Assembly (NCBI GenBank): GCA_003586115.2
Contig: QVOM02000101.1
Location: 26,518,901-26,582,900 of the forward strand
Reading direction: 5' to 3'
Origin: Salvator merianae
Lineage: Eukaryota; Chordata; Lepidosauria; Squamata; Teiidae
Length of the DNA stretch: 64,000 nt
The notes under the pieces are model-generated. The model was not told the origin of the DNA, searched no databases, and saw only the letters and a program-made list of their open reading frames with translations. The position numbers and the translations under genes were made by a program. Positions within the stretch are counted from its first letter, which is position 1; the number at the start of each line of letters is the position of its first letter. This document shows, in pieces, positions 3,021-49,112 of the stretch.

Positions 3021-3044
3021 GGTTGAAGTCAGTGGGTGACTTCA

Positions 3045-5118: not shown

Positions 5119-5121
5119 ATT

Positions 5122-6196: not shown

Positions 6197-6284
6197 ACTG
6201 TCTGCACTGTGTGGTTGGAAATGAGTCCTGAAGCTGGCTACTTGCATTCACACCACAGTGTTTACAGGTAGTGTTCACACTGAT

Positions 6285-7288: not shown

Positions 7289-7332
7289 AGAGGGAGAGAG
7301 AGAGAGAGGGAGAGAGAGGGAGAGAGAGAGAA
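7289..7332. repeat. (GA)n microsatellite
   Basis: Imperfect GA/GGGA tract of about 44 bp. Confidence 0.9.
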
Positions 7333-7899: not shown

Positions 7900-8420
7900 T
7901 TCCAGCATATCTCACATGGGATAAGACAATCTGTCTGGCATCCAGATCCAGAGCCATTTAGGGCTTCATGGGTTAGAACCAACACTATGAATTGAGCCTG
8001 GTACACTATTGGCAGATAATGCAGTACCTGCAGTCATGCATGATTGATTACTCTTGCTGCTGCATTCTTCACTGGCTACAGTCCCAGAGTTGTCTTCAAG
8101 GACAGAATCATGTAGAGTACATTGCAGTAATTTGAGAGATTATTACTGCTTGTACTACTGAAAACAGGTTAGCTCTATCCAAACATGGCTGAAACTAGTG
8201 CACCAGCTGAAGCTGGACGTAACTCGTTGTTGCCAAAGTGCCTTTAGTGTCAGTTTGGAGTCCAGAAGCACACCCAAGTCCCAGATCTTTAACTCCAAGA
8301 ACTGCCCACCTGGAGAAAATCTGTTTTACCCAAATTCAGTTGCAATCTTCTCATATTCATCCACTCCATCACAGAATTGGTCTCCCTTAATGCAAGTCCA
8401 AGAAGGAAAACTAATCAGAT
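7900..8420 (-). mobile_element. L2-type LINE fragment, 3' coding end
   Basis: Read in reverse it contains the L2 landmarks seen in the better copy at 18.3 kb: TTACTGCAATGTACTCTACATG, CCTTGAAGACAACTCTGGGA, GAATGCAGCAGC, AGGCTCAATTCATAGTG and CCCTAAATGGCTC. These encode the tail of the L2 polymerase but are broken by indels. The copy is strongly decayed and truncated at both ends. Confidence 0.6.
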
Positions 8421-13400: not shown

Positions 13401-13772
13401 GATTATAGTCTGATTTAATGGCGCAGCTATTTTTTGCCTGGCTGGGCTTAGTTTTATTATTTGTATGTTTGGATGAGTGGGAAGTGAGTCCATAGAAATG
13501 ACTTCACCTTTCCAACCCAATTCCCCATTGACCATCAGCGCAAGACCCCCACTGGGTCGTCCTCTTTTTGCCATCTTTTGAGCAGATTGATTCCAGACAT
13601 TATATCCAGGTAATTGGGAGCTCTGCTCTGCTGTTAGGAGCCACGTTTCCTGAAGAGCTATTATACTATACTCAGAGAGGAAATCTAAAAATTGGGGATT
13701 CTTAACATTGCGAGACCAGCCGGCTATATTCCAGGATAGAATTTTAATTGGCTGTTTACTTTGGTTGATTAG
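10410..13772 (-). CDS. LINE ORF2: endonuclease and reverse transcriptase
   Basis: This protein would nick target DNA and prime reverse transcription of the element RNA. The frame is open for 1,120 codons from just after the ORF1 stop (TGA at 13775-13773). The first ATG is at 13574, but the conserved endonuclease start lies upstream of it (SWNI and ALQETW motifs, between 13740 and 13620), so translation must begin earlier. Counting from that ATG: endonuclease GDFNAR at 100-105 and SDHQPL at 204-209; reverse transcriptase with AGFRQGRS near 548-555, FIDLSAAFDS at 581-590 and YADD at 684-687; a CxCx9Hx4C knuckle at 998-1015. No internal stop or frameshift was found over 3.36 kb, so this copy is young or recently active. 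ORF2 is in the same frame as the end of ORF1, across UGA-CUA. Confidence 0.9.
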   Translation of the reverse strand, partial: LINQSKQPIKILSWNIAGWSRNVKNPQFLDFLSEYSIIALQETWLLTAEQSSQLPGYNVWNQSAQKMAKRGRPSGGLALMVNGELGWKGEVISMDSLPTHPNIQIIKLSPARQKIAAPLNQTIIILNIYIPPVISKFHSKDTWVVLDLVLEEIGNLFPSALTIMLGDFNARLGDSTKKLAAACGLPPEDSDLPIVPNWCSRDKTTNKAGLKLTELLFKHHLHILGGEGTGHRYPYTFHGTKSSSVLDYICVTKEFQTLFSGITVIPNISSDHQPLTAILCMPSDLRKVLPADQEFGQQIEIQYNKRLRWQSVDLGSIEKFLRSEIAKELYQVIKSDSNQVVDAIQAYSKLTAHLKSFLTVNPSRRPTKARTTPWFDNECLKTRKQLRQLLREAQSNPSPEIHNNMLMLRRKYKKLILRKKISYNQKVWADLELAAKDKNSVVFWHLVSNKMKEVRFALDTPIPAAHWEGFFDELFNQDSINDYNTYLEPRLDTENLPKWDPVQVNEVKAIILAQNNNKAPGEDFLPAELFKQNPDWWAQLFACLFTCINNTCQMPRGWSTSIIIPIYKKGDKTNPKNYRPISLIDIATKIYTKLLLNMLEHWANLNNIFSEEQAGFRQGRSTIDNCFVLQHLIHKYSNKGRHLYTAFIDLSAAFDSINRSLLWSKLATTNIDLRLLALIISLHSETSLKVRLGSSGALSTEIKTSAGVRQGYILAPFLFCFYINDVVQALNSDTLHRPKVLDRPTNLLLYADDMVLMSTTPVGLRRALNHLNAFCADNFLHINKEKTKVLIFGKSKKTLKWHLEGQGIEQVKSYCYLGLTFTSTGLWALHMKNSLKKAAPAAIALNKLRNHTYPDTIRPTLVVYKHKVIPILLYGAEIWGGINMQSTEAFQLKYMRQLLGVSHSTLSAAVRAELGLAPIKCQVLPRQYSYWLKLNKMHPGRLPRLCLEEQAKSGQTTWLTNLTVNTQKIGLCLQILAAMGPKSLTALKQRLLDIEATKDLAAISQAIFTPFLATSKQLFMLEDYLNISMPWYLRKAFTRARFEQLDTNLKFGRYENIPFPLRTCICGSSAIEDNEHLLLDCPMYGTIRDSLLKPILSGKQYMNNQEKLIRCWAELINIQQ

Positions 13773-14246
13773 TCAATCCTGATACGATATTTGGTCATCC
13801 AAAATCCGGCAGACGCAACCATTTCTAGGTAGACTTAAAGGCTCTTTTTGTTGTTGGGAAACCTTTGAAGGGGAGATATGGGAGTCATTTTCCCCTAGTT
13901 CCTCTGCGAATAAATACCGAGCTTTAAGAAAGTCCTGCCCTTGCCAATAGCTGCGTATCTGATTTCTTGGTTCCTTGTTGTGTTCAATAGCGGGTGAATG
14001 GTGATCGCCAGGAGAGACTTGGGCCGGCGGATCCATTTTAGGATTTTGCTTATTGGGAACTTGAATCACCAATGGTTCCAATGTACTTGGCATTGTACTA
14101 ACTATAGATGTTTCTTGAGTAGTCTTAGGAACCTGTTTGTTTGATGGAAAATAGTAAGCTATTTTCTTTTGTGGTTGGTTTTTTTGTGCCCCCTTTTTTC
14201 TCTTTTTCTGGGCTACTGTCTGGTCATGTTGTACGTGTTTGGGTCC
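13773..14246 (-). CDS. LINE ORF1, C-terminal part (after a one-base frame change)
   Basis: The frame continues ORF1 after a shift in a run of six A (plus-strand T run 14247-14252). It starts with a lysine-rich stretch (QKKRKK, QKNQPQKK) and is then polar, with proline, serine and glutamine and no recognised domain. It ends at TGA (13775-13773), which is followed directly by CTA and then by ORF2 in the same frame. A methionine at 14339 opens the same frame but overlaps ORF1 and is unlikely to be the real start. The likeliest reading is one ancestral ORF1 of about 560 residues, split here by a homopolymer indel; a programmed +1 shift is the alternative. Confidence 0.6.
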   Translation of the reverse strand, partial: GPKHVQHDQTVAQKKRKKGAQKNQPQKKIAYYFPSNKQVPKTTQETSIVSTMPSTLEPLVIQVPNKQNPKMDPPAQVSPGDHHSPAIEHNKEPRNQIRSYWQGQDFLKARYLFAEELGENDSHISPSKVSQQQKEPLSLPRNGCVCRILDDQISYQD

Positions 14247-15447
14247 TTTTTTGCACAGAATGTATACCAGGAACACGTATCGCAGGGGAGATAGTTGATA
14301 CACCTTCCTTAAGAAAATGCTTAAGAGAATCGGTGTCATTAATGGGGCGGGTGTGGTCTTTCAGAATTTTTAACAGTTCCTCTAGTCGGTTTAATATTTC
14401 TAGTTTCCCTTCGCAACTGAGTTTCTTGTACGATTTTAAAAGAGAGATTTCTTCATGGCCCCACTCTATTATTGTGGGTTGGGTGTGAGGGAGAGGGATT
14501 GAGTCATTTACTCTAGGGGCTATGATCCTGCCCTGGTTGTAACACATTGGGTCTGGAGGAGGGCATTTTGGGTTTGAATTTCCTGTCATGGTTGCCTCAT
14601 TCCGTTGCGTGAAGGTTGAGCCTACAAGAGCAGTATTTTTGTGCCTTAATGTTTGAGAGAGATCTATCGCTTTAAAAGTTCTCATTATGTTTATAACATA
14701 TCTCTTCCCTAAAAGGCTCCTCACTCTTATCAGCTGTTGCGGAATGTCAGAGCTGTCGAAGGATAGTACAATTCTTTTATAGAATCCAGCATTTGGGAGC
14801 CAGAACATGGAATTCAAATCAATCTGTTTTTCATCCCTATGGAGTAATTGCTTTAGGGACAGAATTAGCCTCCTTTTTGAGTCCCATTTGCCCCAGTTGT
14901 TTTCCTGTCTTGTTATATTTAGGGCAATTTGACACGGGAGGAATTGGAGTGATTGTCTTTTATTAAATAGTTTTACTCGTTCTGTACTCTCTTCCAACCG
15001 GCAATTAATAGCTGTTATAGCTTGTTGGTGGGTTTTTTTCTCCTTTCGCCTCTTAGTTTCCTTTTCATCTCCCAAGGATAGATAGTTCATTTGAGTAGAT
15101 AAGAGCTTGTCCAGCTTGTAACTGGACTCTCTCCAATCCTTTGTAAGGTTGGCTAAACTATTTGAAATTAACTGTAAGGTATCATGCGACAGAAATACTA
15201 GTTTCGACAACAAGTCAAAAGTGGAAGATGGTAAGTCCGAATTTACTGTCTGTTCCTTTCTCTCTGAGATACAACTGTTGCATTTTTCCATTAACGGGGC
15301 AAATCTGTTTGTGGAGGTGAGACTAGATAGAGAGTCCTCTTCCTCCCTTTTAATGGGACTTTTAAGAGGGCTGCGTTCAGTCTTCGGTTGTTTGGCAGCC
15401 TTATCCCTCTGAGGGTCGGAGTTCCTGCGTTTATTTTTCCTCCCCAT
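14224..15447 (-). CDS. LINE ORF1, nucleic-acid-binding protein (N-terminal and central part)
   Basis: A 407-codon frame starting at the first ATG of the element, 116 bp from its 5' end. The N-terminus is very basic (GRKNKRRN, then KQPKTERSPLKSPIKR), like a nuclear localisation and RNA-binding tail. A central stretch of roughly residues 75-150 is rich in leucine and polar residues and could be helical. Around residues 195-255, a segment with hydrophobic strands (YKRIVLSF and YVINIMRTF) resembles an RRM-like fold, as in many LINE ORF1 proteins. ORF1 proteins coat the element RNA; here that is inferred from position and composition. The frame ends at TGA (14226-14224), just after the A6 run. Confidence 0.7.
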   Translation of the reverse strand: MGRKNKRRNSDPQRDKAAKQPKTERSPLKSPIKREEEDSLSSLTSTNRFAPLMEKCNSCISERKEQTVNSDLPSSTFDLLSKLVFLSHDTLQLISNSLANLTKDWRESSYKLDKLLSTQMNYLSLGDEKETKRRKEKKTHQQAITAINCRLEESTERVKLFNKRQSLQFLPCQIALNITRQENNWGKWDSKRRLILSLKQLLHRDEKQIDLNSMFWLPNAGFYKRIVLSFDSSDIPQQLIRVRSLLGKRYVINIMRTFKAIDLSQTLRHKNTALVGSTFTQRNEATMTGNSNPKCPPPDPMCYNQGRIIAPRVNDSIPLPHTQPTIIEWGHEEISLLKSYKKLSCEGKLEILNRLEELLKILKDHTRPINDTDSLKHFLKEGVSTISPAIRVPGIHSVQKRTQTRTT

Positions 15448-15600
15448 AGATAAGTCAATCTCTTATTGTCTTTAGTGCGATAGAAGGAAATAAATTACCC
15501 GAAAGCAGCTGTTCCAGGAGAATAACGACGGAGCTTCCCTTTCAGGCTGTTGCTCTTGCGGCCATATAAAGTATGAAAACTTGAGACACACTATAACCAT

Positions 15601-30463: not shown

Positions 30464-31984
30464 ATGCAAGATAAGACCCCACCCAGGCAGAAGACAAAGG
30501 GAAGTAGACCGCAATTTAAGAGACATGTGTGGGAGGTGGTTTTGAATGTGAGTAGACCAGTAACTGGGGAGGTAGAAAAAAGAGTGGAAGAGGTTGTAAC
30601 TGCTAAAAGCATGTGAGAAGAAGAAGGAGAAGGAAATGTTCGGGAATTAATCCAGTCTCTTCGAGAGATGGTACAGGAGGTACATGAAGCGAGGAAAATG
30701 ACTCAGCAATTGCTGGAGGAAGAAAGGCACAATAGAGTAAGGCAGGAGGAGAAGTGGGCTAGTCAACTGGCGCAACAAGAGGAGGAGGTTAAAAATGTAC
30801 TCAGTAAAGCGTTAGATAGGATGGAACGGCTGGGTGGAAAGAACATGAAAAGTGTGGATATGGATCCAAGTGACACAGAGGATGAGGAAGTCCCCTTAGT
30901 CCCATAACATGATCCTGTTCCTGTCAAGTTGCATCGGATGGGAGAAGATGAGCATCCTGAGGACTATTTTGTTATGTTCGAGTGTGTAGCAGTTTCTAAT
31001 CGGTGGGACAGAAAAACCTGGGTCGCCAGAATCGCTCCCCATTTGTCAGGCAAGGCACTTAGAGCATATGCTAGTCTACCAGAGAGAGTTGTGAGGGATT
31101 ATGAGGCTGTAAAAGCAGCCGTGTTGCAAAGATATGGAGTTACACCAGAATCCTACAGGCAAAGGTTTAGGAATACTCTGTACAGTACCCAGGAGGGAGT
31201 TGATGATTTGTGGGCCAGACTTTATGAGTTAGCATGTAAATGGCTCCAACCTGACAAGAGGACAAGTGAAGAAGTCATAGAAGAGCTTGTTCTAGAAAGG
31301 TTTGTTGAAGAACTGCCAAAACCCCTAAGATTTTGGGTACAGGAGCACACACCTAGAATAGGAAAGCAAGCAGTAGAGCTAGCTGCTAGCTTCCTATCAG
31401 CCCGACAAGCTGAAGAGTTAAGAGAGGGAGGTAGCGACCAAACAGGCTGCAGCTGTAAAACAGGGGATGAAAGGAGGAGGACTTCACTCAGAGTAAGCAC
31501 AGGATTTAAAGGGACAGAGCCTGATAAAATCCCTAGGCCTTTTCAAGAGAAAAAGCTGGACGGGAAAGGCATGACAAACCTATCAAAGCAAAGGAAATGT
31601 TTTCAATGTGGGAAAATAGGACATATAGAGAGGTTTTGTCCACAAGGAAAGACACAAGCCTCTAACTTGGTCTTTAGAAAAGAACCTGAGCTGAAACGTG
31701 GAATGATACCAGTAAGGGTTAATGGGAAGCAGGTGCCAGCTTTGGTTGACACTGGAAGCTTTCGCTCCCTGATACATTCTTCTTTAGTACGAGATGTAAA
31801 AAGAGAAGGTATTGAACAGCTTACTAGTGTGTTTGGACTCACAAAAAGAATTCCATTGGTCACTGTCTGTCTGGAAACGCCTAAAGGACAAAGGAATGTG
31901 ACAATGGGTGTGGTGGAGAGGCTTCCATATGAAGTAGTGTTGGGGATGGATTTAGAGGATAGTAAGCAGTTACTGTTAGACTAG
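30464..31984 (+). pseudogene. Gypsy gag-protease, interrupted by two stops
   Basis: One frame runs from ATG 30464 to TAG 31982-31984, broken by TGA at 30614-30616 and TAA at 30905-30907 (each one C-to-T change from CGA and CAA). After a basic and glutamate-rich, probably coiled-coil N-terminal part, the segment about 30930-31400 (DYFVMFECVAVSNRW, ... GKALRAYASL, ... LVLERFVEELP) resembles a SCAN domain or Gmr1 capsid. A CCHC knuckle (CFQCGKIGHIERFC) is at 31600-31641. The aspartic protease active site DTGS is at 31747-31758, with a later GMDLE near 31945. The closing TAG is in frame with the following integrase frame, so it is either another C-to-T lesion or a natural read-through stop. Confidence 0.8.
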
Positions 31985-33337
31985 CTCTTGACAGACACAG
32001 TAGTAACATCTGAGGATTCGCTGGTAGTTACACGTAGTCAGATGAAGAAGGGAAATATAGAAGAGGAGGAAACTCAGGAAGGAGAGTTCTTGGATGAGTT
32101 GCCAAGACATCCTGACTTAATCCAACCAGAAAGGCATACATTAAGGAAAGAAAAAGAAATAAGGCAAGCAGATAAAGAAAGAGGAGAACCATTAGATTGT
32201 TCCTGGGAGGTTGATATTGGTCCTTTACAGAAAGCAGACCCTACCTTACAGGTATGTTGGCAAGCAGTTATTCCTCAGAATCACAAGAGGAAGGAAGACC
32301 CCATGTTCATAGTTAAAGATGGCATACTCTTTCGTGTGAAACAGGATGTTAGGACTTCTGAAAGAATAGAGCAGATTGTAGTTCCCCAGCAGTTTAGAAC
32401 CAAACTGTTGACTTTAGCTCATGAAAGCCCATTAGCAGGTCATACGGGAAGAGAAAAAACTTTGATGAGGCTACAGGAAAGGTTCTTTTGGCCCCAGATC
32501 ACAAAAGATGTAGCTGAACACTGTAGCTCGTGTCCAGAATGTCAGATGGTTAGGCTAAGAATAAATTGGACGTGGCTCCCTTGCAATCTGTACCTCTTAT
32601 ACCTGTACCTTTTTCAAAGATAGGCATGGACATTATAGGACCCTTACCTAAGAGTGCTAAAGGTTGTCAATATGTGTTAGTAGTTTGTGACTATGCCACA
32701 AAATACCCTGAAGCAGTAGCCATGAGGACTATTACAGCAAAAGCTATTACAGAAGTACTTATGAAGATCTTTGCTCGTGATGGTGTTCCAAATGAGATCT
32801 TAACCGATCAAGGCTCAAATTTCCAGTCTGCTTTGTTAAAGCATCTTTATTCTTTGTTGGGGGTTGTAAGAGTTAGAACTTCCCCTTACCATCCTCAAAC
32901 TGATGGTTTAACAGAACGTATGAACCAAACATTAAAGAATATGTTTAAAAAATATGCAGGACAGGAACCCAAGCATTGGGATGTGTGGTTGCCATATTTG
33001 ATGTTTGCATATAGAGAAATCCCACAAGCTTCAACAGGATTTAGCCCAATTGAGTTATTATATGGAAGAGAGCCTAGAGGAGTCTTAGATATCATTAAAG
33101 AAGGCTGGTCAAAGCAAATACCAAGTTCTAAAAATGTAGTAGAGTACGTAGTAAAGCACAGGGAAATGTTAGGAAAGTTAGCAACAATAGCCCAAGACAA
33201 CGTAAGGAAAGCTCAGGAGAGTCAGAGGTATTATTACAACATTAGAGTCACCATTTGTACCTGGGGAGAAAGTTTTACTCTTGTTACCAGATTCTGATAG
33301 TAAATTGCAGGCCAAGTGACAGGGACCCTATGTTATT
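31985..33337 (+). pseudogene. Gypsy integrase, frameshifted
   Basis: The zinc-binding HHCC module is at about 32418-32545 (HESPLAGHTG ... CSSCPECQ). A frame change follows near 32555-32580. The catalytic core continues in another frame from 32566: first Asp in GMDIIGPL (about 32625), second Asp in TDQGSNFQS (about 32804), Glu in TDGLTERMNQ (about 32910). A second frame change near 33240-33260 and a TGA at 33317-33319 separate the core from the GPY/F module, whose start (QGPYV) lies at about 33320. Integrase inserts the cDNA copy; this one cannot be made intact. Confidence 0.85.
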
Positions 33338-34949
33338 TTGGAGAAGTGTGGTCCAGTAAACTATAAAATCGATTTGGGAAAAGGAAAGCATAAGGTTTAT
33401 CATGTGAATTTGCTAAGGAAGTGGATTGAAAGGAAAGTACCGCAAAAACCAGTCCTCCACACTGAAGAAACTGAGGCAGAGGATATTTGCAATAATTTGA
33501 GGAAAACTCTGAAAGAAGGTATAGACACTTCTCGAATAAATCCTCATCTTACAAAAACCCAAAAAGAGGAATTACAAAAAGTGTTGGAACCATTTCAAAA
33601 TATTTTTACTACAAAGCCAGGAACATGTCCTGTGATTGCACATAAAATAGACACTGGAGACGCCAAAGCCATTCGTCAAAAATTCTACAGAATTCCTCAA
33701 AAAGCAAGGGAGACTATGGAAAAAGAGATACAAAACATGTTAAATCTAGGCGTAATCGAACCATCTAATAGTGACTGGGCATCTCCAATTGTTCTAGTAC
33801 CGAAACCAAATGGGGAAATAAGATTTTGTGTGGACTTGAGACATCTCAACAAAGTAACCAAGTTTGATTGTTATCCGATACCCAGAATGGAAGATATTAT
33901 AGAGCAACTGGGAAATACACAATATTTAACAACTCTAGATTTGTCCAAAGGTTATTGGATAATACCATTAGAAGAGTCTGCAAAGGAAAAAACTGCATTT
34001 TCTACACCTCAAGGACTTTTTCAGTTCACTAAACTACCATTTGGATGTGTGGGTGCTCCAGCGACGTTCCAAAGGCTGATGGACAAAGTGTTACCTGGGA
34101 AAGGACAGTATTGCATCTCATATCTCGATGATATTATCATATATAGTAAAACATGGAAAGAACATGTAGAACATGTATCTGAGGAGGTAAACAAATTGAA
34201 AGAGCTAGGACTCACTATTAATCCTATGAAGTGTAATTTTGCATATCCAGAACTAAAGTATCTTGGGTATATAGTGGGAAATAAGGAGGTAAAACCAGTG
34301 GAGGAAAAAAATAAAAGTTATACAGGAAATACCAATTCCTAAAACCAAGAAGGAAGTTAGAGCATTTCTAGGTTTAGTAGGTTATTATAGTAAATTCATT
34401 CCACATTTTTCTACTAAAGCAAAGGCTTTGACAGACCTTACCAGGAAAACAGAACCAAATAGTGTGTTGGACTTCAGAATGTCAAACAGCTTTTGATGTA
34501 TTGAAAAATGCTTTATGTAACAAACCTGTCCTAAGAGAACCTGATTATGATTTACCATTTGTTTTATATGTTGATGCGAGTGAAGTAGGTCTAGGAGCAG
34601 TTCTCATGCAAGAATTTGAGGATGGGGAACATCCAGTATTGTTTTTGTCTAAAAAATTGTTACCTAGAGAGCAAAAGTATAGTGTCATAGAGAAAGAGGC
34701 ATATGCAGTTATGTGGGCAGTGAAATCACTGAAAGTATACTTATGGGGAAGAAAGTTTATAATTGTTACCGATCACAAACCATTAATATGGCTTGAAAAA
34801 AATGAAAGATACAAACAGTAGACTAACTCGTTGGTATCTTACTCTGCAACCTTACTGCATGGAAATTTGCCATATTGCTGGGAAGGATCAAAAGGTTGCC
34901 GACTTTCTTTCAAGGTATACGGCAGATTCGGAACTGCCTACCTTTTATT
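33338..34949 (+). pseudogene. Gypsy GPY/F tail, reverse transcriptase and RNase H, frameshifted
   Basis: The frame opens in the GPY/F module (VYHVNLLRKW at about 33391-33420), then enters reverse transcriptase: FCVDLRHLNK near 33826, LDLSKGYW near 33937, FTKLPFGCVGAPATFQ near 34027 and the active site YLDDIII near 34120. It is broken by a run of seven A at 34305-34311, returns near 34455, and the RNase H frame 34462-34821 carries FVLYVDASEVGLGAVL, EKEAYAV and VTDHKPL. A second run of seven A (34796-34802) shifts it again before the terminal HIAGKDQKVADFLS segment, which ends at TAG 34949. Both A-run breaks look like slippage indels. Confidence 0.85.
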
Positions 34950-37559: not shown

Positions 37560-39372
37560 TGCAATGACTGTGGTGGCCAGGAATTCTTACCTCTATCTCT
37601 GACTGGTTCATCAGCTTTGACCTTTTCTGGATAGGGACAGTTTGGCCACATTGATCCATTCTCTGGTAACCTCCAGACTACTGTAATGTGCTGTACATGA
37701 TAGGGATGTGCATGAAATGAATTTTCTCTGTTCGTTTCGCAATGCATCAAAACTTCGTTGCTTCGTTTTCGCACGAAAACGGAAGTCACGAAAATGGCGA
37801 TTTTCGTTTTCGCAGCGAAAATTTTCGAAAACCGGAAGTGGAAAATCAATGAAATAAGTAGCGAAAAACAAACGCCGCATATCCCCCTGCCCTCTCCCTT
37901 CTATATTTGACCGTCCACGTTGCTAATTTAAGGAGTTGCTTCGTTAAAAGTAAAAATTGCACGGAGCTTACTTTTTACCGGTGGCCGGTTTGTAGCAGGA
38001 TTCAAAGCAACGAAGGTACGTTTGGGGTTCCTCACTGCAGCTCGAAAGCAAGTGAAAGCAAGCGAAGGAATTTTTTTCGCTTTGATTTTTTGTCATTTTC
38101 GATGCCTTTTCGACGCTCATGTCTGTGCGCGCATGCGTGCTAACTTCTGTCCCTTTAACTTATTGGCGCAACTTGTCGCTGTCTGCCGTCTGTGCTGATT
38201 GTTTGGGGCACAGAAATTATTACCTCGCCTACAAGGCGGGCACGCTTAGTCAGCGACGCACGAAGCAATTGCCTTCAGCTCAGCGCGTAATTTAGAAGAC
38301 TGGCGGCAGCCGCAGGATGAAATAACTCCCTACTTCTGAGCAGCAGCGAAATGACGCCTCGTCTTGCCCTCCCTCCCTACTTCCGAGCAGCAGCAAAATG
38401 ACGCCTTGTCTTGCCCTCCGTTTCAAAAAGCAGAACTATATACCACCATCAAAGACGTTTTATTAACTCCTAGCCATCTGAGTTTCTCATCCTCATGCGG
38501 TGCGATCGCTGCGAGGCAGGCGAAGAGTTAAAAAAAATACCATCTTTCCTAATGTGATGCATTACAATTTCCACCTCTAGAGGCAGAGACTTGAGGCTAC
38601 GAAGCTACCGAGCTTCTTTGCATCGCAGTTTTCGCAGCAAAAAAAGACGAAAAATAGCTGTTCGCGGTGAGTAGCGAAGGTCACGAAAATTGACGAAAAT
38701 CGCCGTGACTTTCGCTATTCACTTTCGCGATAGAGAGGGCACTTCGCATTCGATGCAAATGTTGCGAAGCAACAAAATTCGTACGAAATTTCGTTGCTTC
38801 GAAATTTCATGCACATCCCTAGTACATTTGGCTGCCCTTGAAGATACTTCAAATCCAGACCTAGTGCAGAATGCAGCAGCATGACTGCTGATGGGAGTTT
38901 CCAGAAGGGCTCACATCAGACTGGTCTTGAAGGAACTGCAACTGTTACCAGTTTGTAAATGAACCCTATTCAAGGTGTTAACACATATATCCTGAGTATC
39001 TGAAGAGGTGCCTTCTCTCAGATAGTCCTGCCTTTAAGATCATAAAGTGAGGGCCTTCTCATAATTCTGTTACCTTCAGAGGTATGAGCGATTGCAGATG
39101 TGAGAAGGTTTTCTTTGTGTGCACCCCTGCCTTTGGAATAACTTCCCAGTGGAAATATGCCATGCACCATTTTATATAGTTTTCAGAACCTGGTTAAAGT
39201 GTACCTCTTCACCCAGGTATATAATGCATAGTTTATTCTGAATATAATCTTGCTAGGGTGGGAAGGTTATGTTTAAATACGTTATAGTATTTTGCATATT
39301 TATCATATGCTGTAACCCACTCTGGACCTTTGGGTGAAGTGCAGGATAGAAAGGTAATAAACAAATGAAAGA
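37560..39372 (+). mobile_element. L2-type LINE 3' end, split by a hAT insertion
   Basis: The left part ends CCAGACTACTGTAATGTGCTGTACATGA and the right part resumes GTACATTTGGCTGCCCTTGAAGA, so together they match the L2 word CTGTACATGGGGCTACCTTTGAAGA at 18.39 kb with one 8-base duplication. Further landmarks are CTAGTGCAGAATGCAGCAGC (38859) and the tail GTGCAGGATAGAAAGGTAAT followed by AAACAAATGAA (39340-39370). The coding part is heavily decayed. Confidence 0.75.
37701..38821 (-). mobile_element. Non-autonomous hAT element (1.12 kb), deletion derivative
   Basis: The termini TAGGGATGTGCATGAAAT and ATTTCATGCACATCCCTA are inverted repeats, flanked by GTACATGA (37693-37700) and GTACATTT (38822-38829), an 8-bp target duplication with two mismatches. 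Its left half matches the reverse of the right end of the 8.57-kb hAT (for example GCTTTGATTTTT, TTTTCGATGCC, CTCATGTCTGTGCG). Its right half matches the reverse of the other's left end (GGCAGCCGCAGGATGAAATAA, ATGACGCCTCGTCTTG). It is therefore an inverted, internally deleted relative with no genes. A 47-bp unit is tandemly duplicated at 38328-38374 and 38375-38421. Confidence 0.85.
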
Positions 39373-39752: not shown

Positions 39753-40534
39753 GTATGATTTTACCCTTTCTTCAAACCAGAGATGGCTCAGCAGAAATGG
39801 GGTGTGATGTGATTGCTTTGAACACTCTTAAGTGGTTGAAGTGAGGTCTCTAACCGCATCTTGTGCTGACTGCACTGCTTCAGAGAACGTAGAGATACTT
39901 AATATCAGATAGTTTAAGCAATTGATAATTATCATGGTGATGATGATGACGACTAGTCCAGAATTGTCCTGAGACCTTTGTGGCAGTGTAATAGAAATCT
40001 GACTCTCTGTCTGGTATATCAAATGACATATGGCCAGCTCTTCCTATATGAAAGAATCCTTGACAATCTGACTACAGTACTTTCAACAATGTTCCCTGTG
40101 ATCAGGAACTTGCTTATTTTTAGTAGAGATGTGCAAAGTTTACTTTGACCCTCAAAATATTGATTGAATAGTTTATGCTCAAAGCTGCTTGCATCAGGCT
40201 GAAAATGCAGTTGATTAAATTTAGACAATTTCGATCAAACTGAACCAGATCCCTACTCATAAACATGAACAATTTGATCAAACATTTTGTACTTGCTATG
40301 TTTTTCCCTTGCCCTTGTCCTTGAAATGTTCCCTCTACATGGGAAAATTGATTTTTTTTGTTTGTTTTTGAACAAGTTCAAAACAAAATGCAAACAACTG
40401 TTTGTTTGATAAACAGTTCACTGTCAAGCCAAACAAGCAGGTGTTCAGTTCAGGTTTGAACCAAACTCTCAATTTTTGTTCTCTAATTTTCAGCAATGAA
40501 TATTTTTGAGATTTTATTTAGATAAGGTGCAGAC
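39753..40534. other. AT-rich DNA with a possible decayed hAT end at 40121
   Basis: TAGTAGAGATGTGCAAAG at 40121-40138 resembles the terminal repeat of the hAT elements in this window (TAGGGATGTGCA). The following 350 bp repeats GTTCAAAC/GTTTGAAC-like words but no right end was found. Otherwise nothing supported. Confidence 0.3.
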
Positions 40535-40750
40535 TAGGGGTGTGCACGAAGTTTCGAAGCAACGAAATTTCATACGAATTTCGTTGCTTCGCGACTTTCG
40601 CATCGAATGCGAAGTGGCACCTCTACTACGAATGCGAATGGCGAAAGTCCCGTCCATTTTCGTAAATTTTCGGGACCTTCGCCACTCGCCGCGAACGGCC
40701 GTTTTCATCTTTTTTCGCAGCGAAAACTACGAAGCTACGAAGCACGGTGG
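40535..40750 (+). repeat. hAT left terminal and subterminal repeats
   Basis: After the 16-bp terminal repeat come GTTTCGAAGCAACGAAATTT and repeated TTCG/CGAA words. The palindrome TTTTTCGCAGCGAAAA is at about 40711-40726. Such arrays are the usual transposase-binding sites of hAT elements; binding is inferred. Confidence 0.7.
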
Positions 40751-41474
40751 CTTCGCATTCTACAGACTCTGCCTCTAGGGGTTGGAAATTGTAATGCATC
40801 ACCGTAGGAAAGACTTAGACGACGGGGTTTTTTTTAACTCTTTGCCTGCCTCGCATCGGATCGCATCGCATGAGGATGAGAAAGTCAGATGGCTAGGGCG
40901 TTAATAATATTTGTTTGATGGTGGTATAGTTATACTTTTTGGAACATAGTGCAAGACGACGATGCGTCATTTCGCTGCTTTTCTCAGTTATTTCATCCTG
41001 CGGCTGCCTCCAAATCTTCTAAATTACTCGCTTAGCTGAAGGCAACTGCTTTGACCGTCACTGACTGAGCCCGCCCACCTCGTACAATGAGTAGGACTAG
41101 GCGAGGCGCTTGTGGAAAAAAAATTAACTGAGGTTACTACGAAGTCGCGAGGCAACGAATGACCCGTGGAAATCAAAATGTTGCTGCTGCTGGCTGGCTG
41201 CTAAAGGAAGAAAAGGGAAAGGAGCGAGCTTCAGCGCGAGAGACCGTGAGAGCCGTCTAACGGGGATCATATGAGGTAACTTACTACTAGCTTTGAGAGC
41301 CAGTGAAAGGTGTTTTTTTTTTTGGAAAGCTTTTTGAAAGTGCCTGCCCAGGCAGGGCATACCCACTGATAAGAGGGCATGTTGGGCAAGGAGGTCAGAA
41401 GACCCCAGCTGCCGTGGAGAGGGCGAATCACTAGTGTGATCCTAGGCAGCCAATCCCAGAGCAGGTTTCACAGG

Positions 41475-41507
41475 CCAATAAAACTTCAGTGGGCGGGATC
41501 TATTTAA
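41475..41507 (+). promoter_or_regulatory. Promoter-like motifs before the Myb/SANT-like gene
   Basis: CCAAT at 41475, GTGGGCGGG (GC box) at 41489 and TATTTAA at 41501. The TATA-like word is only 21 bp before the start codon, too close to give a normal leader, so the CCAAT and GC boxes may be the working elements. Confidence 0.4.
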
Positions 41508-41527
41508 TGGTCACCTCGTAGGGAAAA

Positions 41528-43778
41528 ATGGCAACCCGTTATTTGTACTGGCAGCCAGAAGAGATCCAGGCCCTGCTGGAGGCGCTGCTAGCGGCCAATG
41601 GGCCGCGAGAGCGTCTGATGACCTGCACCTGCAGGCAAAATCGAAGCCTCTTCTTAGAGGCATCGAGAAGTCTGCAGGTGCGGGGATTCAGGCGCTCCGT
41701 GGCACAATGCCGTCTAAAATTCAAGGGGCTCAGGGCCGCTTTCTACGGAGCCCTGGAGGCCCATGATGGCTCTCCCCCGCACCAGAAGAGGCCACCTCAC
41801 TACCCCCTCCTCCGACAGCTCTGGGTGGTTGCTGGGAAACCACACTGGAGTCATCGCCACAAGGCCAGTTCAGGTACGGCGTTCCTTCTTGTCATTGAAA
41901 CGCCTCCCTACTGCCCCCTAAAATAAATATGGATTGCCAGATGTGGCCTGACCGCTTGTGCGCATCTGCCACTCTCTTGGCAGTTGGGGCAATGATATAA
42001 TAAGTGTTATTGTTAGCTGCTTCTTGCACTCTTGATTTCAGTGGGAAGGAACTGCTGATTTGTTTGACTGGGACCTTATGCGGGGGGGGGGGAAGGTACA
42101 GAACCATAATGCTGGCTGTAATACATGATGGTCTCACATTAAACATGAACTCCTTATTTCTGCCACATACATGGCTGGATGGCATCAAGTACGGTGGGTG
42201 GGTAACGCTTTCTTATGCAGTTGGCCCAACTGACAACCTCTGAACAGTGTGACATTATTGCTTTCCAGCCGGAGCACGTTCTCCTGAGGAGCAAGAGGAG
42301 GAGGAGGAGCGGCCAGCTGCAGAGCCAGCAGAAGGTACGTTGGTGTTGCCCTTTGGAAGGGATGCTGTGGGGACACTACTAAGAATGAGGGAATAGCAGG
42401 GAACAGGTGGAGGTTTGTGAACCCAGACAAAAATGGGAATTGTCAGGCCGTCAGGTGTTCATTGTGGTTCTTTCCTCTATCCTCCCCCTGAGCAGAACCA
42501 CCCGCAGTGCTGGAAGGAGCCCCAGCCCCAACACACACTGACCCACCAGGCATCCTTCTGCAGGAGGATCCTGCGATGGAGGGCAGCAGCAGGGGCGTTC
42601 ACTGTAACTTTGCTTGCAGGGGGGCTACATGAAGCAGGATACAGCTAGCTTCCTTGGCGGGCGGGCTGCAAGCCTGTCCGAAATGGGGAAGTGGGCCTGA
42701 TTCATTGATCCATTCCATCAGTTCCCTCCCTGCCCTACCCTGCTGCCAATGCTGATCAGGGCAGAAGGTGCACTTCCAGTGACACATCTTGCTGTTGAAT
42801 TGAAATGTTGTTATATTCCTTTCCTCTCTCCTTCTTCCCAGCTGTAGCACTTAGTGTGCCTGGAGCGGCATCCCCCCCCCCACACACAGGAAAGCAGTGA
42901 GTATTGCACCGGCCCTTATTCCCCAGCCGTTTCTGCCCACCCTGCATCACTGCCATTAGGGGACTGGTGTTACTGGCAGCAGATCCCTCTTGCACCAATC
43001 CCCATTGCATCCTGTTGGCTGCTGAGCCACCTGTTCTGCTCTCACTTTACAGGATGCCCAGCAGGAGGCCCATCCTCAGAGGGCTCAGCCCCCTCCACAA
43101 GTGCCCTGCTGATCTGCACAGAGGAGGAGGAGCAACTACCCCGCCCTCCCTGTTGCAATGCGGCCACCCAGACTGCCCAGCTGGAGCATGGGACCCAGAC
43201 CACCTGCCTCGAGGAGGTCCTGGAGTCCCATGCTCGGATGCAGAGGGCAATGGCCACGCACCGTGAGTATCCCTGGTTTTTTTGCTGTTCACACGTTGGT
43301 GTTGCTGTGCAGGGCGAAGTGCGCCCTTGCCTCCTTTGCGTGACTGGGGATGTGTGGAGCATCTGGGCAGATGTGTATCGGTCCTAATTTCCTCCTCTTA
43401 TGTTTCCACAGACCAGCAGTGCAACGCGAGGGCTTCTGCGGTGGAAAGGGGAATGCAGGTTCTGCAGGGGCAGGTGGAGGCTCTGGATGCCCGCCTAAAC
43501 ATGATAGGCAATGCGGTGCTGGAGCTGAGGGATGCTCTCCGGGGGCAGGCTCCCCCGGAGAGGCCCGCAAGGTGAGTGAGGGCCTATGGCCAGAGGCAGT
43601 AGTACCGCGTTGGTAGGGAAGACAGCGGGATAGGGTTCAGCAGGGCAAACAGCTGCAGCAAGTTCCTGGAATGGGCAGCATGCGTGGCGAGTCATTATCT
43701 TCCAGGGCCCTCGAGGGGTTGGAGGAGCCGTTCATCCTATGCTCCTCTGCCAGCAGCTACTGCTGGAATTCAATTTGA
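41528..43778 (+). CDS. Transposon-borne Myb/SANT-like DNA-binding protein, seven exons
   Basis: Proposed exons: 41528-41873, 42269-42334, 42496-42603, 42842-42896, 43053-43262, 43412-43571, 43706-43778. All introns are GT-AG and short (134-395 bp), mostly interrupting codons after the first base. Exon 1 encodes a Myb/SANT-like (trihelix) domain: W8 in YLYWQPEE, LFLEASRSLQVRGFRRS, QCRLKFKGLR, then YPLLRQLW. Exons 2-4 add an acidic run (EEQEEEEE) and a proline-rich linker; exon 5 has TEEEEQLPRPP and ends LESHARMQRAMATH; exon 6 looks like a coiled coil (VLQGQVEALDARL). The frame fits throughout except that exon 4 is one base too long at a C10 run (42872-42881). About 338 residues are expected without that base. 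Its role is probably to bind transposon ends or escort the transposase, as Myb-like proteins do in Harbinger elements; that is inference. The exon 3 donor (ACT|GTAACT) is the weakest junction. Confidence 0.7.
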
Positions 43779-44020
43779 CTGTTGTGCCCTTTCCCTCAAA
43801 TTTCCTGGGAAACCTGCACGATGCCTGATCAGCAATTATTTCCCCCTGCAGGTTCTGAAGTCCTGCCTGGCCTGCCTGCACTGCTGCCGCACATGTAAAT
43901 AGTTTTCTGTATTTGATAAGGTTTTGTTTTACTAATGTTTAAAATTCTGCTGTTCATTGCCCCACCTATCCCTATCCCTAACCCTTTGTACATATACCCC
44001 ACCTGACCATCCCTGAGTCC

Positions 44021-44026
44021 AATAAA
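44021..44026 (+). terminator. Polyadenylation signal of the Myb/SANT-like gene
   Basis: AATAAA, 243 bp after the proposed stop codon, followed by T-rich sequence (TTGTTTTGCTT). Confidence 0.65.
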
Positions 44027-44708
44027 ATTGTTTTGCTTACTTAATCCAGATTCTGTGTACCTGATTCCTTTGGAAAGTCTGAGTGGGAAGTGTAAACTTT
44101 TAAGTGCATGCATTCTGTTTCAAAATCGCACTCTAGTTCGGGTAGGTTTCCGTTCCTCTAGGTTGCCCCTTACCAGACCATGGCAGAACTAAATAGGAAA
44201 TGTGTGGCCTGGTACAAGCTCCAGTTGGGCATGAGACAACCTAGAATAAGAGGATGCCGCTGTAGATTACAGCGGCCAGTAGAAGGTTATGTATTGTAAC
44301 ACATGGTGATGGTGAACTGACAAACTCCCAAGAAAAGACGTTCTTCCAGCTTAAATATAACTCTTACAAGCTGTTGAAGAGTTTGCCAACGGAATTTTTT
44401 GCACATGCCAGTTCAGTTAAACTCCAAAAGAGATATGAGCTGTACCCAAGTAAAAGAGGGAACGGCTTTGTTTGTACATGTGATGGGTTGGACTAGATAG
44501 CCTCATGGTGTCCCCGGGGTCTCAAATACCCCTCTGCTCAGGTAGGGCTGGCTGGGAGGGACTTTTTCATATTGAGGTGATGGTGTGTGTTCTCCACCTC
44601 GGACAAGGCCTCAGACTGGCCTTGGGCGCGGACCCTGATGGGTTCTGCTGGCCCAGGGACACAGAGCGTAACCTGTACCTAGTACCCATGTCATCATTGG
44701 CCTGGCGT

Positions 44709-44710
<2 letters not shown>

Positions 44711-44740
<30 letters not shown>
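44711..44740. repeat. (TG)n microsatellite
   Basis: Fifteen TG units. Confidence 0.95.
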
Positions 44741-44742
<2 letters not shown>

Positions 44743-45081
44743 TGAGTTTGCGTCACGGTGCGTGTGTGTCTGCATGCATACGTGCCTGAGCGTGACACAG
44801 ACACGGAGAAAGAGATTGCTCCGACAAACTGAAATATAGACAGTTAGAAAGCAAATGTTTTTTACCCCTTAATAAAGTCCCTACTCAGCTTCCCCTACTA
44901 TTCAATACACTGTGTTTCTGCCCCTTACTTTGTGGCTCTCCTTATCTACAGTTTCCTGCTGGTTTGGTGCTTAATTATTCTTCTGGTCCTGTTGGGGGTT
45001 ATTGGGCCACCTAGTTCTTCTCATTTTTGTCCCGGCTGCCTATGGTGCTGCAGTGTTGGGATGGAGTGATCCATGGTCTGG

Positions 45082-47649
45082 TCACTCATCCCCCAAAGGC
45101 AGCTCGGGAAAACCCAGCAGGGGCAGGTTGGCCTTTAGGAAGACGAGCTGCTGCACAAGTTCGCCGCCCGTGCGAGAGCGATGAGATGTCAACACATCAC
45201 CAGCCATGGAGAACACCCTCTCGCTCTGCACGGATGTCGGTGGAGCTGACAGGTACCTCCGGGCAACAGCTTCCAAATCCGGCCAGATTTGGCGATGCTT
45301 CGCCCAAAACTCGGATGGCACCGTGTCCACGTCTGCCGCTTCCCCTGAAAGATACTGCAGAACGGACTGCTCAGCACTATCAACGGAAGCTGGCCTCTGC
45401 CGTCTCGTGGGAAGGTCAGTGAGTCCAAAAATGTCAGACTCTGTGTCGTCTGGGCACTCAGCATGACCTGCCTGTGAAACCACGCTGCTGGGCTGACCGC
45501 TACCACTAGGACCAGGGGAACTTCCGCCACTGGAAGCGGGGGACGCACTGCTAGCAGGCGCTCCTCCACTGTGCCCTGCCTGGCCCCCCAATCTCTCTGT
45601 TTGGACTCTCCTCACTGCCTGGACCAGGCGATCTCTCCACCGAGGGAGCTGATCCTCTGGGACAGCTGCCTCCCGAACCCTTGGGTCCAGAAGGCTGGCC
45701 AAAATGGAGGCAGGCTTCTGTCGCAAGGGCTCAATCAGCCTCCTCTCTACCCCAGCCTGCAGCTGACTCGCCAAGGCCCGTCCAGCCTCAGTGTTCAGCT
45801 GCGGCCGAAGCCCAGCAAGGCGTTTGCCCAAGGCAATCGCACCTGTCAGCGCAACGCTCAGCATTGCTGTCTCAGAACTCATTTTCCTCGTCAGCTGATC
45901 GAAGAACCGGAGAACCTTGACAGCATCCGTGATGGTGTGCCAGTCCTCCAGGGAGAGACTGCACTCCTCCACGTTATGCCTCATCGCGAGCGTGTGAAGG
46001 GCGGGCTCCTGCTCTAGAAGGCGCTGGAGCAGGAGGTAGGTGGAGTTCCACCGGGTGGGAACGTCAGTGGGGATCTGATGTTCCGGCCGTTGCCGCTCCC
46101 TCTGGGCCTCTCTGAGCAGCCTCTGCATGCTAACACTCCTGTGCAAATGGGAAGCCATCCTGCGGCACTTCTCCACAAGGGCTCCCATAGATGCGGTGGC
46201 GGAAGCTGCAGCGGGGCCCACACTCCTGGACCCAGGCCCAGGGAGTCCAAGAGCGTCCCTCATGACCAGGTGGAGAGTGTGAGACATACAGGTGACGCTC
46301 ACAAACCCCGCCAGGCCGGCTGCCTTAACTATGTTCCTACCATTGTCCGTGACCATGAAGCCATGGCAAAGGGTCGGTTCATGGCTCAACCAACCGTTCA
46401 CCTGACGCTCCATGGCCTCAGACAGGTGTTCGGCAGTGTGGCTCGTGTCAAACTCCTCCACATGCAGCAAGGCCCAAAGGGGCTTAACTGCCTGTGAGGG
46501 AGCTTGAGAAGGCGCAGCAGCACTGGCCGAAACACCACCCTCTCTTTCCTCCCCCCACCAGTGCGCAGTGAGGGAGAGGAAGGAGCCATGCATTCCTGTG
46601 CCGCTGGTCCACAGATCGGCAGTGAAATGCACGACTGGGCAGGGATGGATGGCAGTGCGTGCCATCCTTACCTGCACCGCCTCCCTGCACGCCTCGTACA
46701 GGGAGGGCATCACGCTCCTGCTGAACGTGGTGCGTGAGGGTATTTTGTAGTCTGGGGCGAGCTCCTGGATCACCCGGCGGAAGCCGATGTTCTCCACCAC
46801 GGCGAGTGGCTGATCATCGAGGGCGATCATCTCCGCAATGAGCCGAGTCAAACGAGATCTACCTCGACGATCAGCCCAGGAGCCCCCAGCCTTCCGCAAC
46901 CACTGCTCGGGTAGCTGTGTCTGCCGGGTGGCTGACACAGCACTGCTACTCCCAGGCACGCGTGGCCTACTGCTGTCATCAGGGGGCAGAACGGTAGGGT
47001 GCCGACTCCTCAGGTGGGTCCACAACGCAGTGGTGCCAAGACGCCGGATGTTCTGCCCCCTGCTGACCCGTGCCTTGCAGTGCTTGCAGGCAGCGTAGGT
47101 TGGAGCATCAGGGCAGAGCTCAAAATGACTCCACACTACGCTGCCCTCTGGGCTAACATGACGTGCCCGCTTCGCTGCTGGAGATGGTTCTGCTGCTGCT
47201 GGCTCCTCCTGGGGACCAGAACCATCCCCCCCCCCAGCCCGGGGCCGAGAAGGACCAGGGCGAGGCTCCCGCTCCTCCTCGGTCTCGGGCTGCGAGGTCG
47301 CACTGGAACCCGGGACAGGTGGGGGAGGCCCAGCTGCCATGGCAGCTGGAGCCGTCTCCACCACCCCCCCCTCTTCCCTTGCTGGAGGAACCTGCAATTC
47401 CTCAGCGTGAAGGAGGGAGCTATGCGCCTCTGCTGAGGAAGACAATCCAGCATCAGGCTCAGGCCCAGCTTCCCGTTGGGGAGAGTCTAGCCTGCGCGCT
47501 GCACGGACTGTATGTCTGGTGGCAGGGACTTGGGGAGTAGGCCCCTCAGATGCCTGCCTGCCACGGCCAGCAGCATCAACTCTCCCTTCCCCCCTACGTA
47601 CTAGGAATCTAGCCATTCCTCTACCTCTATTGCCCTTCTTCCCAGCCAT
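45082..47649 (-). CDS. hAT transposase with BED zinc finger (855 residues)
   Basis: Cuts and pastes the element. The first about 165 residues are a disordered arginine- and proline-rich tail. A BED zinc finger spans about 171-217 (Cys188, Cys191, His212, His217). The catalytic core follows: first Asp345 in HFTADLWTSG, second Asp435 in MVTDNGRN, the CxxH motif Cys454/His457 in CMSHTLH, conserved Trp534 in PTRWNST, and the Glu at 810 in SVQSERVFS. The hAT dimerisation region covers about 775-850 (FWAKHRQIWPDLEAVARRYL onwards). A serine- and glycine-rich insert lies at 688-730. Length and motifs match the Ac-like branch that gave rise to the ZBED genes of vertebrates. The frame has no lesion, so the protein could be active. 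Confidence 0.93.
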   Translation of the reverse strand: MAGKKGNRGRGMARFLVRRGEGRVDAAGRGRQASEGPTPQVPATRHTVRAARRLDSPQREAGPEPDAGLSSSAEAHSSLLHAEELQVPPAREEGGVVETAPAAMAAGPPPPVPGSSATSQPETEEEREPRPGPSRPRAGGGDGSGPQEEPAAAEPSPAAKRARHVSPEGSVVWSHFELCPDAPTYAACKHCKARVSRGQNIRRLGTTALWTHLRSRHPTVLPPDDSSRPRVPGSSSAVSATRQTQLPEQWLRKAGGSWADRRGRSRLTRLIAEMIALDDQPLAVVENIGFRRVIQELAPDYKIPSRTTFSRSVMPSLYEACREAVQVRMARTAIHPCPVVHFTADLWTSGTGMHGSFLSLTAHWWGEEREGGVSASAAAPSQAPSQAVKPLWALLHVEEFDTSHTAEHLSEAMERQVNGWLSHEPTLCHGFMVTDNGRNIVKAAGLAGFVSVTCMSHTLHLVMRDALGLPGPGSRSVGPAAASATASMGALVEKCRRMASHLHRSVSMQRLLREAQRERQRPEHQIPTDVPTRWNSTYLLLQRLLEQEPALHTLAMRHNVEECSLSLEDWHTITDAVKVLRFFDQLTRKMSSETAMLSVALTGAIALGKRLAGLRPQLNTEAGRALASQLQAGVERRLIEPLRQKPASILASLLDPRVREAAVPEDQLPRWRDRLVQAVRRVQTERLGGQAGHSGGAPASSASPASSGGSSPGPSGSGQPSSVVSQAGHAECPDDTESDIFGLTDLPTRRQRPASVDSAEQSVLQYLSGEAADVDTVPSEFWAKHRQIWPDLEAVARRYLSAPPTSVQSERVFSMAGDVLTSHRSRTGGELVQQLVFLKANLPLLGFPELPLGDE

Positions 47650-47698
47650 CTATGTGTTATTATATTACTTTTACAGAGAGCCCTAAGTCCCTATAGCC

Positions 47699-48244
47699 CT
47701 GGCAGGGGTGAGGTGGGGGCTGGAGCCGTGAAGGCTCCGGGTAGCCTAGGAGAAATTGGTGTGGGGGGTGCCTGTTTATTTGGGATGTGTGTCACCCAGC
47801 AGAATGCTATGGCACTGCTGTGAGACACACACAAACCTGGGTGAACCGAATTACCCCAGAGAAGCAGCAGACTTACTTTGGGGGAGCCTTATTAGAATTT
47901 ATTTGGTGGGTGGGTGGGGATGAAAGCAGCAATATTGTCTGTGGGGGCAAGGTTAACTAATACAGAGGGAGGGGGAGATGGTTTTGGGGACCCTGCACTA
48001 GCAGCCCTACCTGCCTTGACCTAAGCGTTAGCCTAGCCTAACCGTAATCCTAACCTAAACCCACTAGAAGTCCCTATTTAGGGGAAGATAAGAACTACTG
48101 TGCCTATGTGCACACACACGCCTAACTCTGAGACCCTGGCACTCACAGTCTGCTGTCCCCTTCCTTTCCCCCCCACTCCACTATCCCCTCAGCCACAAAG
48201 TAATACGAAAGCAAGGGGTGGTGGAGGAAGAAAATGGATATTAC
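47699..48244 (-). other. Predicted 5' UTR intron of the hAT transposase gene
   Basis: On the minus strand the donor CTTCAG|GTAATA ends exon 1 at 48245, and the acceptor CACCTCACCCCTGCCAG|GG starts exon 2 at 47698. The spliced leader (about 48447-48245 plus 47698-47650) has no ATG before the start at 47649, which supports the model. Confidence 0.5.
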
Positions 48245-48471
48245 CTGAAGAGCAATAAAAGAAAGATAAGGCAGAAGGGAAGGAAGGGAGGGATGAGAGA
48301 GAGAGAACCACCCCACCACGGGAAGCACAGGGTCGGAAGAGAGAGAGAATGAGAGATCGAATCCCGGTGTCTCGTCTCCTCCTTCAGTCGCACAGCAGGT
48401 CAATCAGCTAAGAGTCAGCTAGCTCCGATCGTCACGGAAATAAAAAAGGCTTAACGGCTCATCGGGAGCCG

Positions 48472-48480
48472 CTTTTATAA
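48472..48480 (-). promoter_or_regulatory. TATA box of the hAT transposase gene
   Basis: TTATAAAAG on the minus strand, about 830 bp before the transposase start and 625 bp inside the right end. It would start transcription near 48447. Confidence 0.6.
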
Positions 48481-48699
48481 GGTGCTATGGACCCACCCAC
48501 TTCAATCACAAAAACCTTTTGTTTCCATGGCAACAGCAGGTAATTGCAAAAATAAACAGAGCGCCAACACCCCAGGTGGGAAAATTTGAAATCGAAGCGC
48601 CAATCAGGAGAAAGCAAGCCAATAGGTAATTTCCTTGCCCCAATCGATCGGCAGCCAGCGACGAGTGCCATAGTTAAAGGGACAAAACATGGCGCGCTT

Positions 48700-49104
48700 G
48701 CACGCACAGACATGAGTGTCGAAATGGCATCGAAAATGGCGAAAAATCAAAGCGAAAACACCACCTTCTGCTTTCGCTTGCTTTCGCTTGCTTTCGCCTC
48801 TCTGGCATATTAGCGAAATTATAGCATTCATTTCCTTCCACGCAACCTCGCGATCGAAAGTGAGGAAACGTAGCTTCGTGGCTTTGAATGTTCCAACAAA
48901 CCAGCCACCGGTTAGAAGTAAGTTTCTCAATACTTATTCCCTTATTTTAGAAGGAGCGTACCCCCCCCCGGTTTTTGCGAAGATTTTCGCAGCGAAAACG
49001 AAAGTCTACATTTTCGTCATTAATGTTTTCGCGCGAAAACGAAGCTACGGTGCTTCGAAGCTTTGCGAAACGAAAACAAAAAAATGCTTTCGTGCACATC
49101 CCTA
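48700..49104 (-). repeat. hAT right subterminal and terminal repeats
   Basis: Dense GCTTTCGCTT and CGAAA words, the palindrome TTTTCGCAGCGAAAA at about 48984-48998, TTTTCGCGCGAAAAC near 49026, and the terminal TTCGTGCACATCCCTA. The layout mirrors the left end and the 1.1-kb derivative. Confidence 0.75.
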
Positions 49105-49112
49105 GTGCAGAC

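Follow-up and report, generated by a model that had tools for sequence, protein, structure and literature searches.

A 64,000-nucleotide stretch of the Salvator merianae genome (contig QVOM02000101.1, positions 26,518,901 to 26,582,900; hereafter the window) was found to carry a hAT element of 8570 bp (40535-49104 in window coordinates, which are used throughout) with two convergent genes. The minus strand encodes a hAT transposase and, on the plus strand, five predicted exons splice into a gene for a 262-amino-acid (aa) protein with a Myb/SANT-like domain. A preliminary description of the window had listed matching 16-bp termini, a perfect 8-bp duplication, an unbroken BED/hAT transposase and a convergent multi-exon gene with a Myb/SANT-like first exon. 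All four were confirmed (Table 1): the termini are identical at 15 of 16 positions, the same 8-mer, GTGCAGAC, lies on both sides, the transposase is open over 855 aa with both Pfam domains, and the first exon of the five-exon model matches Myb_DNA-bind_4 (PF13837) above the cut-off. We consider it very probable that the element represents a two-gene hAT family in which the Myb gene is resident.

The short terminal inverted repeats (TIRs) begin with TAGGG and differ from each other at one base. Together with the 8-bp target site duplication (TSD) and a transposase that has a dimerisation domain and a BED finger, they are the features by which the element belongs to the hAT superfamily. The terminal motif, with up to three mismatches allowed, occurs at five sites across the window versus 0.48 expected by shuffling. 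Four of these sites are the ends of the element and of a nearby relative, and the fifth is a weak site with three mismatches; the search found no further ends of this family between the termini. The words CGAAGC, GCGAAA and TGCGAA occur 9, 12 and 8 times in the two 330-bp ends versus 5, 3 and 0 times in the 7.9-kb interior. The nearby relative (37701-38821, minus strand), 1.7 kb from the element, is an old deletion derivative of about 1.1 kb with the same kind of ends. It consists of pieces that match the two ends of the element at 75-84% identity, the interior is absent, and the flanking 8-mers (GTACATGA/GTACATTT) agree at six of eight positions. It also contains a 47-bp tandem repeat.

In the transposase, zf-BED (PF02892, 7.2e-11) covers residues 170-218 and Dimer_Tnp_hAT (PF05699, 2.2e-13) residues 772-842. 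The closest PDB entries by sequence were those of Hermes (1.8e-12), with which the VTDNG (residue 433 on) and SER (809 on) stretches align. The D of TADLW (343 on), the D of VTDNG and the E of SER are candidates for the catalytic D-D-E residues of an RNase-H-like core; their roles and the choice of the first D are our assumption. Among the matches listed in a search of 5.8 billion proteins (11 matches in all; 7993 candidates scored), the closest relatives were five ZBED4-like proteins of Hemicordylus capensis (45-52% identity), followed by proteins of Anolis, Eublepharis and a bat. According to precomputed domains, two lizard ZBED4-like proteins (P0001 and P0008) have a SCAN domain (PF02023) joined to a hAT transposase.

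The four predicted introns of the Myb gene are all GT-AG, and an AATAAA signal (44021-44026) lies 3' of the stop codon. Myb_DNA-bind_4 was matched by exon 1 at 5.1e-9 (36.9 bits versus a cut-off of 27) and by the spliced protein at 1.6e-8 (35.3 bits). All four family proteins examined matched PF13837 at E ≤ 1 (best 2.2e-9), the cut-off being shown for the first of them. The five-exon model was preferred because its frame is uninterrupted in 14 of the 16 young members of the family (see below), whereas two versions translated with a candidate exon at 42842-42896, one with and one without a further candidate at 42496-42603, had the later exons thrown out of frame. The latter candidate (108 bp, in phase) was also left out of the model; it may serve as an alternative exon. 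A comparison of exon 1 with PDB sequences gave matches at E 0.33 and above only, with a plant GT-1 trihelix at the top, and a single-sequence fold (mean predicted local distance difference test score 42.5) was not used.

Table 1. Features of the hAT element and its immediate flanks, in window coordinates (UTR, untranslated region; ORF, open reading frame)
Feature	Position	Strand	Basis
Left TSD GTGCAGAC	40527..40534		Flank comparison
Left TIR TAGGGGTGTGCACGAA	40535..40550	+	End-motif search
Left subterminal region, many CGAAGC/GCGAAA/TGCGAA words; candidate protein-binding sites	40551..40864		Hexamer counts
Myb exon 1, start codon at 41528 and Myb_DNA-bind_4 (PF13837)	41528..41873	+	Pfam, splicing model
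Myb exon 2, acidic linker	42269..42334	+	Splicing model
Myb exon 3	43053..43262	+	Splicing model
Myb exon 4, tail; coiled-coil family matches sub-threshold only	43412..43571	+	Splicing model, Pfam
Myb exon 5, stop codon at 43856-43858, then 3'UTR	43852..44045	+	Splicing model; 3' end at 44045 assigned, not observed
hAT transposase, 855 aa, single open frame	45082..47649	-	ORF list, Pfam
Right subterminal region, many CGAAAA/GCGAAA/CGAAGC words	48775..49088		Hexamer counts
Right TIR TAGGGATGTGCACGAA (minus-strand reading)	49089..49104	-	End-motif search
Right TSD GTGCAGAC	49105..49112		Flank comparison

Recent and diverged copies of the element

Copies were counted in the genome to which the window belongs (2.05 Gb). 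The 8570-bp sequence was present at full length (1-8570) and 97-100% identity in at least 15 places, the window included (17 of 7066 candidates were scored), so the two-gene structure is not a product of chance. Sixteen other copies were fetched, and 15 of these had both ends, with a perfect 8-bp TSD in 14 and a duplication matching at 7/8 positions in one. The left end of the remaining copy (L023) lay beyond the fetched stretch, and the alignment of 16 young sequences (the window and 15 others) was made without it. An apparent replacement in one copy (L024) proved to be an assembly gap. Divergence of the 15 two-ended copies from the one in the window is 0.3-2.0%, so the family moved recently. 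Of the 16 young sequences, 13 have an open transposase and 14 an open Myb frame, and all eight Myb splice dinucleotides are intact in 15.

Both genes were found in 15/15 of the other two-ended copies, some of them broken. The preliminary description had reasoned that copies with the same ends and no plus-strand gene, or separate insertion boundaries around that gene, would mark it as a passenger. The copies in this genome did not refute its membership of the family, and the Myb gene was not observed to have flanking ends of its own.

At least 53 full-length copies of the transposase exist (53 scored of 6832 candidates), and a convergent Myb exon 1 lies at 3.2-5.0 kb in 47 of them. Among the other six, one has an internal duplication and retains Myb exon 1, with a stop, and the later exons; another has lost exon 1 by deletion and kept the later exons; two keep the later exons, with a gap or the limit of the fetched stretch upstream; and in the last two the Myb side is hidden by runs of N. 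Myb exons are thus in place in 51 of the 53 scored copies, two are hidden, and none was shown to be without the gene. Two transposases nearer to the Hemicordylus protein (C900 and C1602) were outside this reading of the Myb side. A protein search with Myb exon 1 gave at least 150 places (969 candidates); the 150 scored were all 89-100% identical, and 127 of them, counted from the listing, contained no stop.

From among the Myb loci of lowest similarity, four (L025, L026, L027 and L028) were also fetched. L025 is an element of 8835 bp, about 83% identical to that of the window in two main blocks (about 17% diverged), with the same ends, a perfect TSD (TTCCTAAC) and both genes; its transposase pieces are 67-78% identical to the window transposase. 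In L028, the whole five-exon Myb frame is open with all splice sites kept, and the 8 bases beyond its two ends do not match each other. L026 and L027 contain both genes, broken or rearranged. The indels (insertions or deletions) in the Myb coding sequence of L025 and L028 are all multiples of three, and L025, L027 and L028 each retain GT and AG at the four introns. As diverged copies hold both genes, the pairing of Myb gene and transposase is older than the recent burst.

The genome also contains at least 150 matches to Myb_DNA-bind_4 above the cut-off, and 18 of those listed fall in open frames of one and the same length, 177 aa (e.g., L036:1994-2527), possibly another mobile Myb gene. At one locus with such a frame, no transposase of the window family was found within 4.5 kb, and the Myb sequence is only 30% identical.

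Selection and rapid change in the Myb gene

In the non-coding part of the 16 young sequences, 46 indel events were counted in 5264 columns. At this rate, 6.9 events were expected in the Myb coding sequence and 22 in the transposase, versus one (3 bp, in frame; P 0.008) and none (P 2e-10) observed, and it should be noted that the non-coding control includes homopolymers and a short repeat. Among the same sequences, the ratio of nonsynonymous to synonymous differences (pN/pS) was 0.61 in the Myb gene and 0.65 in that of the transposase, not far below the simulated neutral values of 0.75-0.85.

For Myb exon 1, the less similar copies gave pN/pS versus the window of 0.31 (L025), 0.24 (L026), 0.38 (L027), 0.49 (L028) and 0.21 (L031). 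The pooled value was 0.32 versus simulated neutral means of 0.74-0.81, and 0 of 400 simulations were as low in each of four mutation settings; the five comparisons share the window branch and are not independent. These substitution patterns show purifying selection on exon 1. Singly, with observed and simulated ratios measured in the same way, exon 1 gave 0.32 (P 0.008-0.024) for window-L025 and 0.49 (P 0.13-0.21) for window-L028. The whole gene gave pN/pS of 0.43 (P 0.004-0.012) and 0.66 (P 0.15-0.35) for the same two pairs, and exons 2-5 gave 0.50 (P 0.03-0.11) and 0.72 (P 0.24-0.52), so that no clear constraint on the tail (exons 2-5) was detected by pN/pS in these two comparisons. L026 is rearranged and was used for exon 1 only, and L027 was kept out of the whole-gene values because of frameshifts. 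For the transposase, pN/pS was 0.57 (L025) and 0.46 (L028). The DNA-binding exon of Myb is therefore about as constrained as the transposase, since its ratio is lower in L025 and similar in L028.

Exons 3-4 and the 3'UTR of the Myb gene (43053-44045) behave differently: in each of the six pairs formed by the window, L025, L027 and L028, their divergence exceeds that of the gene's introns. The weakest pair was L025-L027 (45/351 versus 128/1490, P 0.019) and the strongest was window-L028 (78/361 versus 84/1513, P 1.6e-18). Outside exon 1, synonymous divergence (dS) reached 0.31 (window-L028), 0.26 (window-L025) and 0.21 (L025-L028); dS in exon 1 was 0.12-0.19, and the introns differ by about 0.04-0.12. 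Within the young family, after removal of CpG sites, the exons (0.0123) and the UTR (0.0185) again exceeded the introns (0.003-0.005) and the transposase (0.005). The pattern was not seen in the transposase exon. Selection on the protein alone is not sufficient to explain it, as synonymous and UTR sites also change fast. These data would fit either selection for escape from silencing of the spliced message or exchange with other subfamilies through their spliced cDNA.

Origin and role of the Myb protein

As is common in hATs, and like its ZBED4-like relatives, the element encodes a BED finger and a C-terminal dimerisation domain; unlike them, it has a second, convergent gene, predicted to contain introns, for a Myb protein. 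A second gene for a Myb/SANT-domain protein, here with PF13837 above the cut-off, is shared with PIF/Harbinger elements, and possession of a second gene is described as what sets PIF elements apart from other DNA transposons (PMC9710019). PIF/Harbinger, Nuwa and Pangu elements (PHIS superfamily; PMC4482050, PMC9710019, PMC9179366) differ in that they use another transposase family and are described as typically making 3-bp TSDs, versus 8 bp here. No Harbinger-type DDE transposase (DDE_Tnp_4 in Pfam) was found in the element, for which Pfam gave, apart from the Myb domain, hAT-type domains and a sub-threshold DUF772 only.

Second protein-coding sequences within hATs are reported from fungi, namely a TET/JBP dioxygenase in hAT7 (PMC12730594) and captured, intronless histone H3 copies, inactivated in Pseudocercospora fijiensis and possibly functional in Pyrenophora tritici-repentis (PMC6710886). 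Unlike the enzyme gene or histone copy reported there, the gene described here comes from an animal genome and is predicted to be spliced and to encode a DNA-binding protein. No hAT with a Myb gene was found among the papers listed in full-text searches of open-access literature, and a description confined to Repbase, Dfam or subscription journals is possible.

The proposal of a hAT family with two genes, made in the preliminary description, is supported by the Myb exons present in every transposase copy readable on that side (51 of the 53 scored), by diverged L025 with both genes and its own duplication, by the absence of further ends around the Myb gene, and by the purifying selection on exon 1; these, with the scarcity of indels, are why we regard the Myb gene as a resident second gene and not as a nested insertion. 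What its product does is less certain. The transposase, with its BED finger and dimerisation domain, would cut and paste the element, as expected from the hAT family. In Harbinger elements, the Myb-like protein reportedly binds both the transposase and the element ends and carries the former into the nucleus (PMC9179366, PMC9710019). By analogy, the Myb/SANT-like protein would most likely bind the repeated CGAAGC/GCGAAA-type words (also TGCGAA) of the ends. It may then aid the transposase in finding the ends or assembling on them, or increase its level in the nucleus, and the tail may serve self-association or binding of the transposase.

We give such a direct helper role in transposition an even chance. 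The full statement, of an autonomous-looking two-gene hAT family whose Myb protein is an accessory DNA-binding transposition factor, is very slightly favoured. The convergent evolution of a helper DNA-binding protein, as the preliminary description had put it, fits the data by analogy with Harbinger elements, and we would call it convergent because Harbinger features are absent from the element. A broader version is more tentative, and we hold it to be possible but somewhat doubtful: that a hAT lineage independently evolved the two-component PIF/Harbinger design, with a Myb/SANT protein required for or targeting transposition, and that part of the Myb mRNA (exons 3-4 and 3'UTR) is rewritten faster than the introns by a silencing arms race or by cDNA exchange.

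Besides the qualifications given above for the indel control and the pooled exon 1 value, several observations weigh against the full statement. The Myb gene is broken in two of the 16 young sequences, and in one more of them, L022, a splice acceptor has been lost. It is also broken in four of the five less similar copies, by stops in L025 (in exon 3), L026 and L031 and by a frameshift in L027. In L025, the transposase alignment shows two gaps whose lengths are not divisible by three and, over 826 codons, no stop. Constraint on Myb rests on exon 1 and on L025. No relative of the Myb protein was found among the 5.8 billion proteins, either at E ≤ 0.001 with one query (3261 candidates) or at E ≤ 1 with four queries (7994 candidates), in a search that requires shared 5-residue words and that did return relatives of the transposase; the pairing of hAT and Myb is therefore seen in one genome only. 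In addition, the transposase already has a BED finger of its own, which counts against a simple copy of the Harbinger design. The BED domains of Hermes bind the transposon end (PMC10368747), and in the window element the transposase's own BED finger might equally well be what recognises the subterminal words.

It is conceivable, though unlikely, that the Myb protein is a useful member of the family that acts on the element's own promoters, as a transcription regulator or an anti-silencing factor, and is not a partner in cutting and pasting. Accessory proteins of some plant transposons are comparable in kind. A DNA-binding domain followed by an acidic linker could suit transcription control, co-retention and constraint are explained equally well, and a transposase with a BED finger may for that reason need no targeting help.

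We judge it improbable that the Myb gene is a passenger, derived from a host Myb/SANT gene that was trapped with its introns between hAT ends and then multiplied without benefit to the element. Donors would abound, given the number of PF13837 places in the genome, and capture of histone H3 by fungal hATs is published (PMC6710886). The lack of clear constraint on exons 2-5, the fast change of exons 3-4 and the broken frames of the less similar copies would also suit a passenger. However, Myb exons are present in every copy readable on the Myb side and in L025 despite its divergence, the pooled exon 1 ratio lies below the neutral means, coding indels are scarce, and L025 and L028 have kept splice sites and in-frame indels. 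A nested insertion or chance overlap, in which the Myb gene of another transposon or of the host landed in one hAT copy, has in its favour only that the combination is unusual, and it is ruled out for practical purposes by the 15 other two-ended copies, which lie at different sites with their own duplications and the same internal structure, and by the absence of a second family end set between the window termini.

With a DNA-binding gene retained in a hAT, more than one superfamily would have given rise to the transposase-plus-Myb design. The purpose of the second protein was called an open question in 2015 (PMC4482050), and the young open copies would offer a direct experimental system for it.

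Two other mobile elements were recognised in the window by eye from the ORF list. Pieces of a Gypsy-type long terminal repeat element lie at 30908-34342 on the plus strand, with an integrase frame before the reverse transcriptase frame, an order that we assume to be Gmr1-like. A long interspersed nuclear element at 10410-15462 on the minus strand has two long open frames of 1120 and 412 aa.

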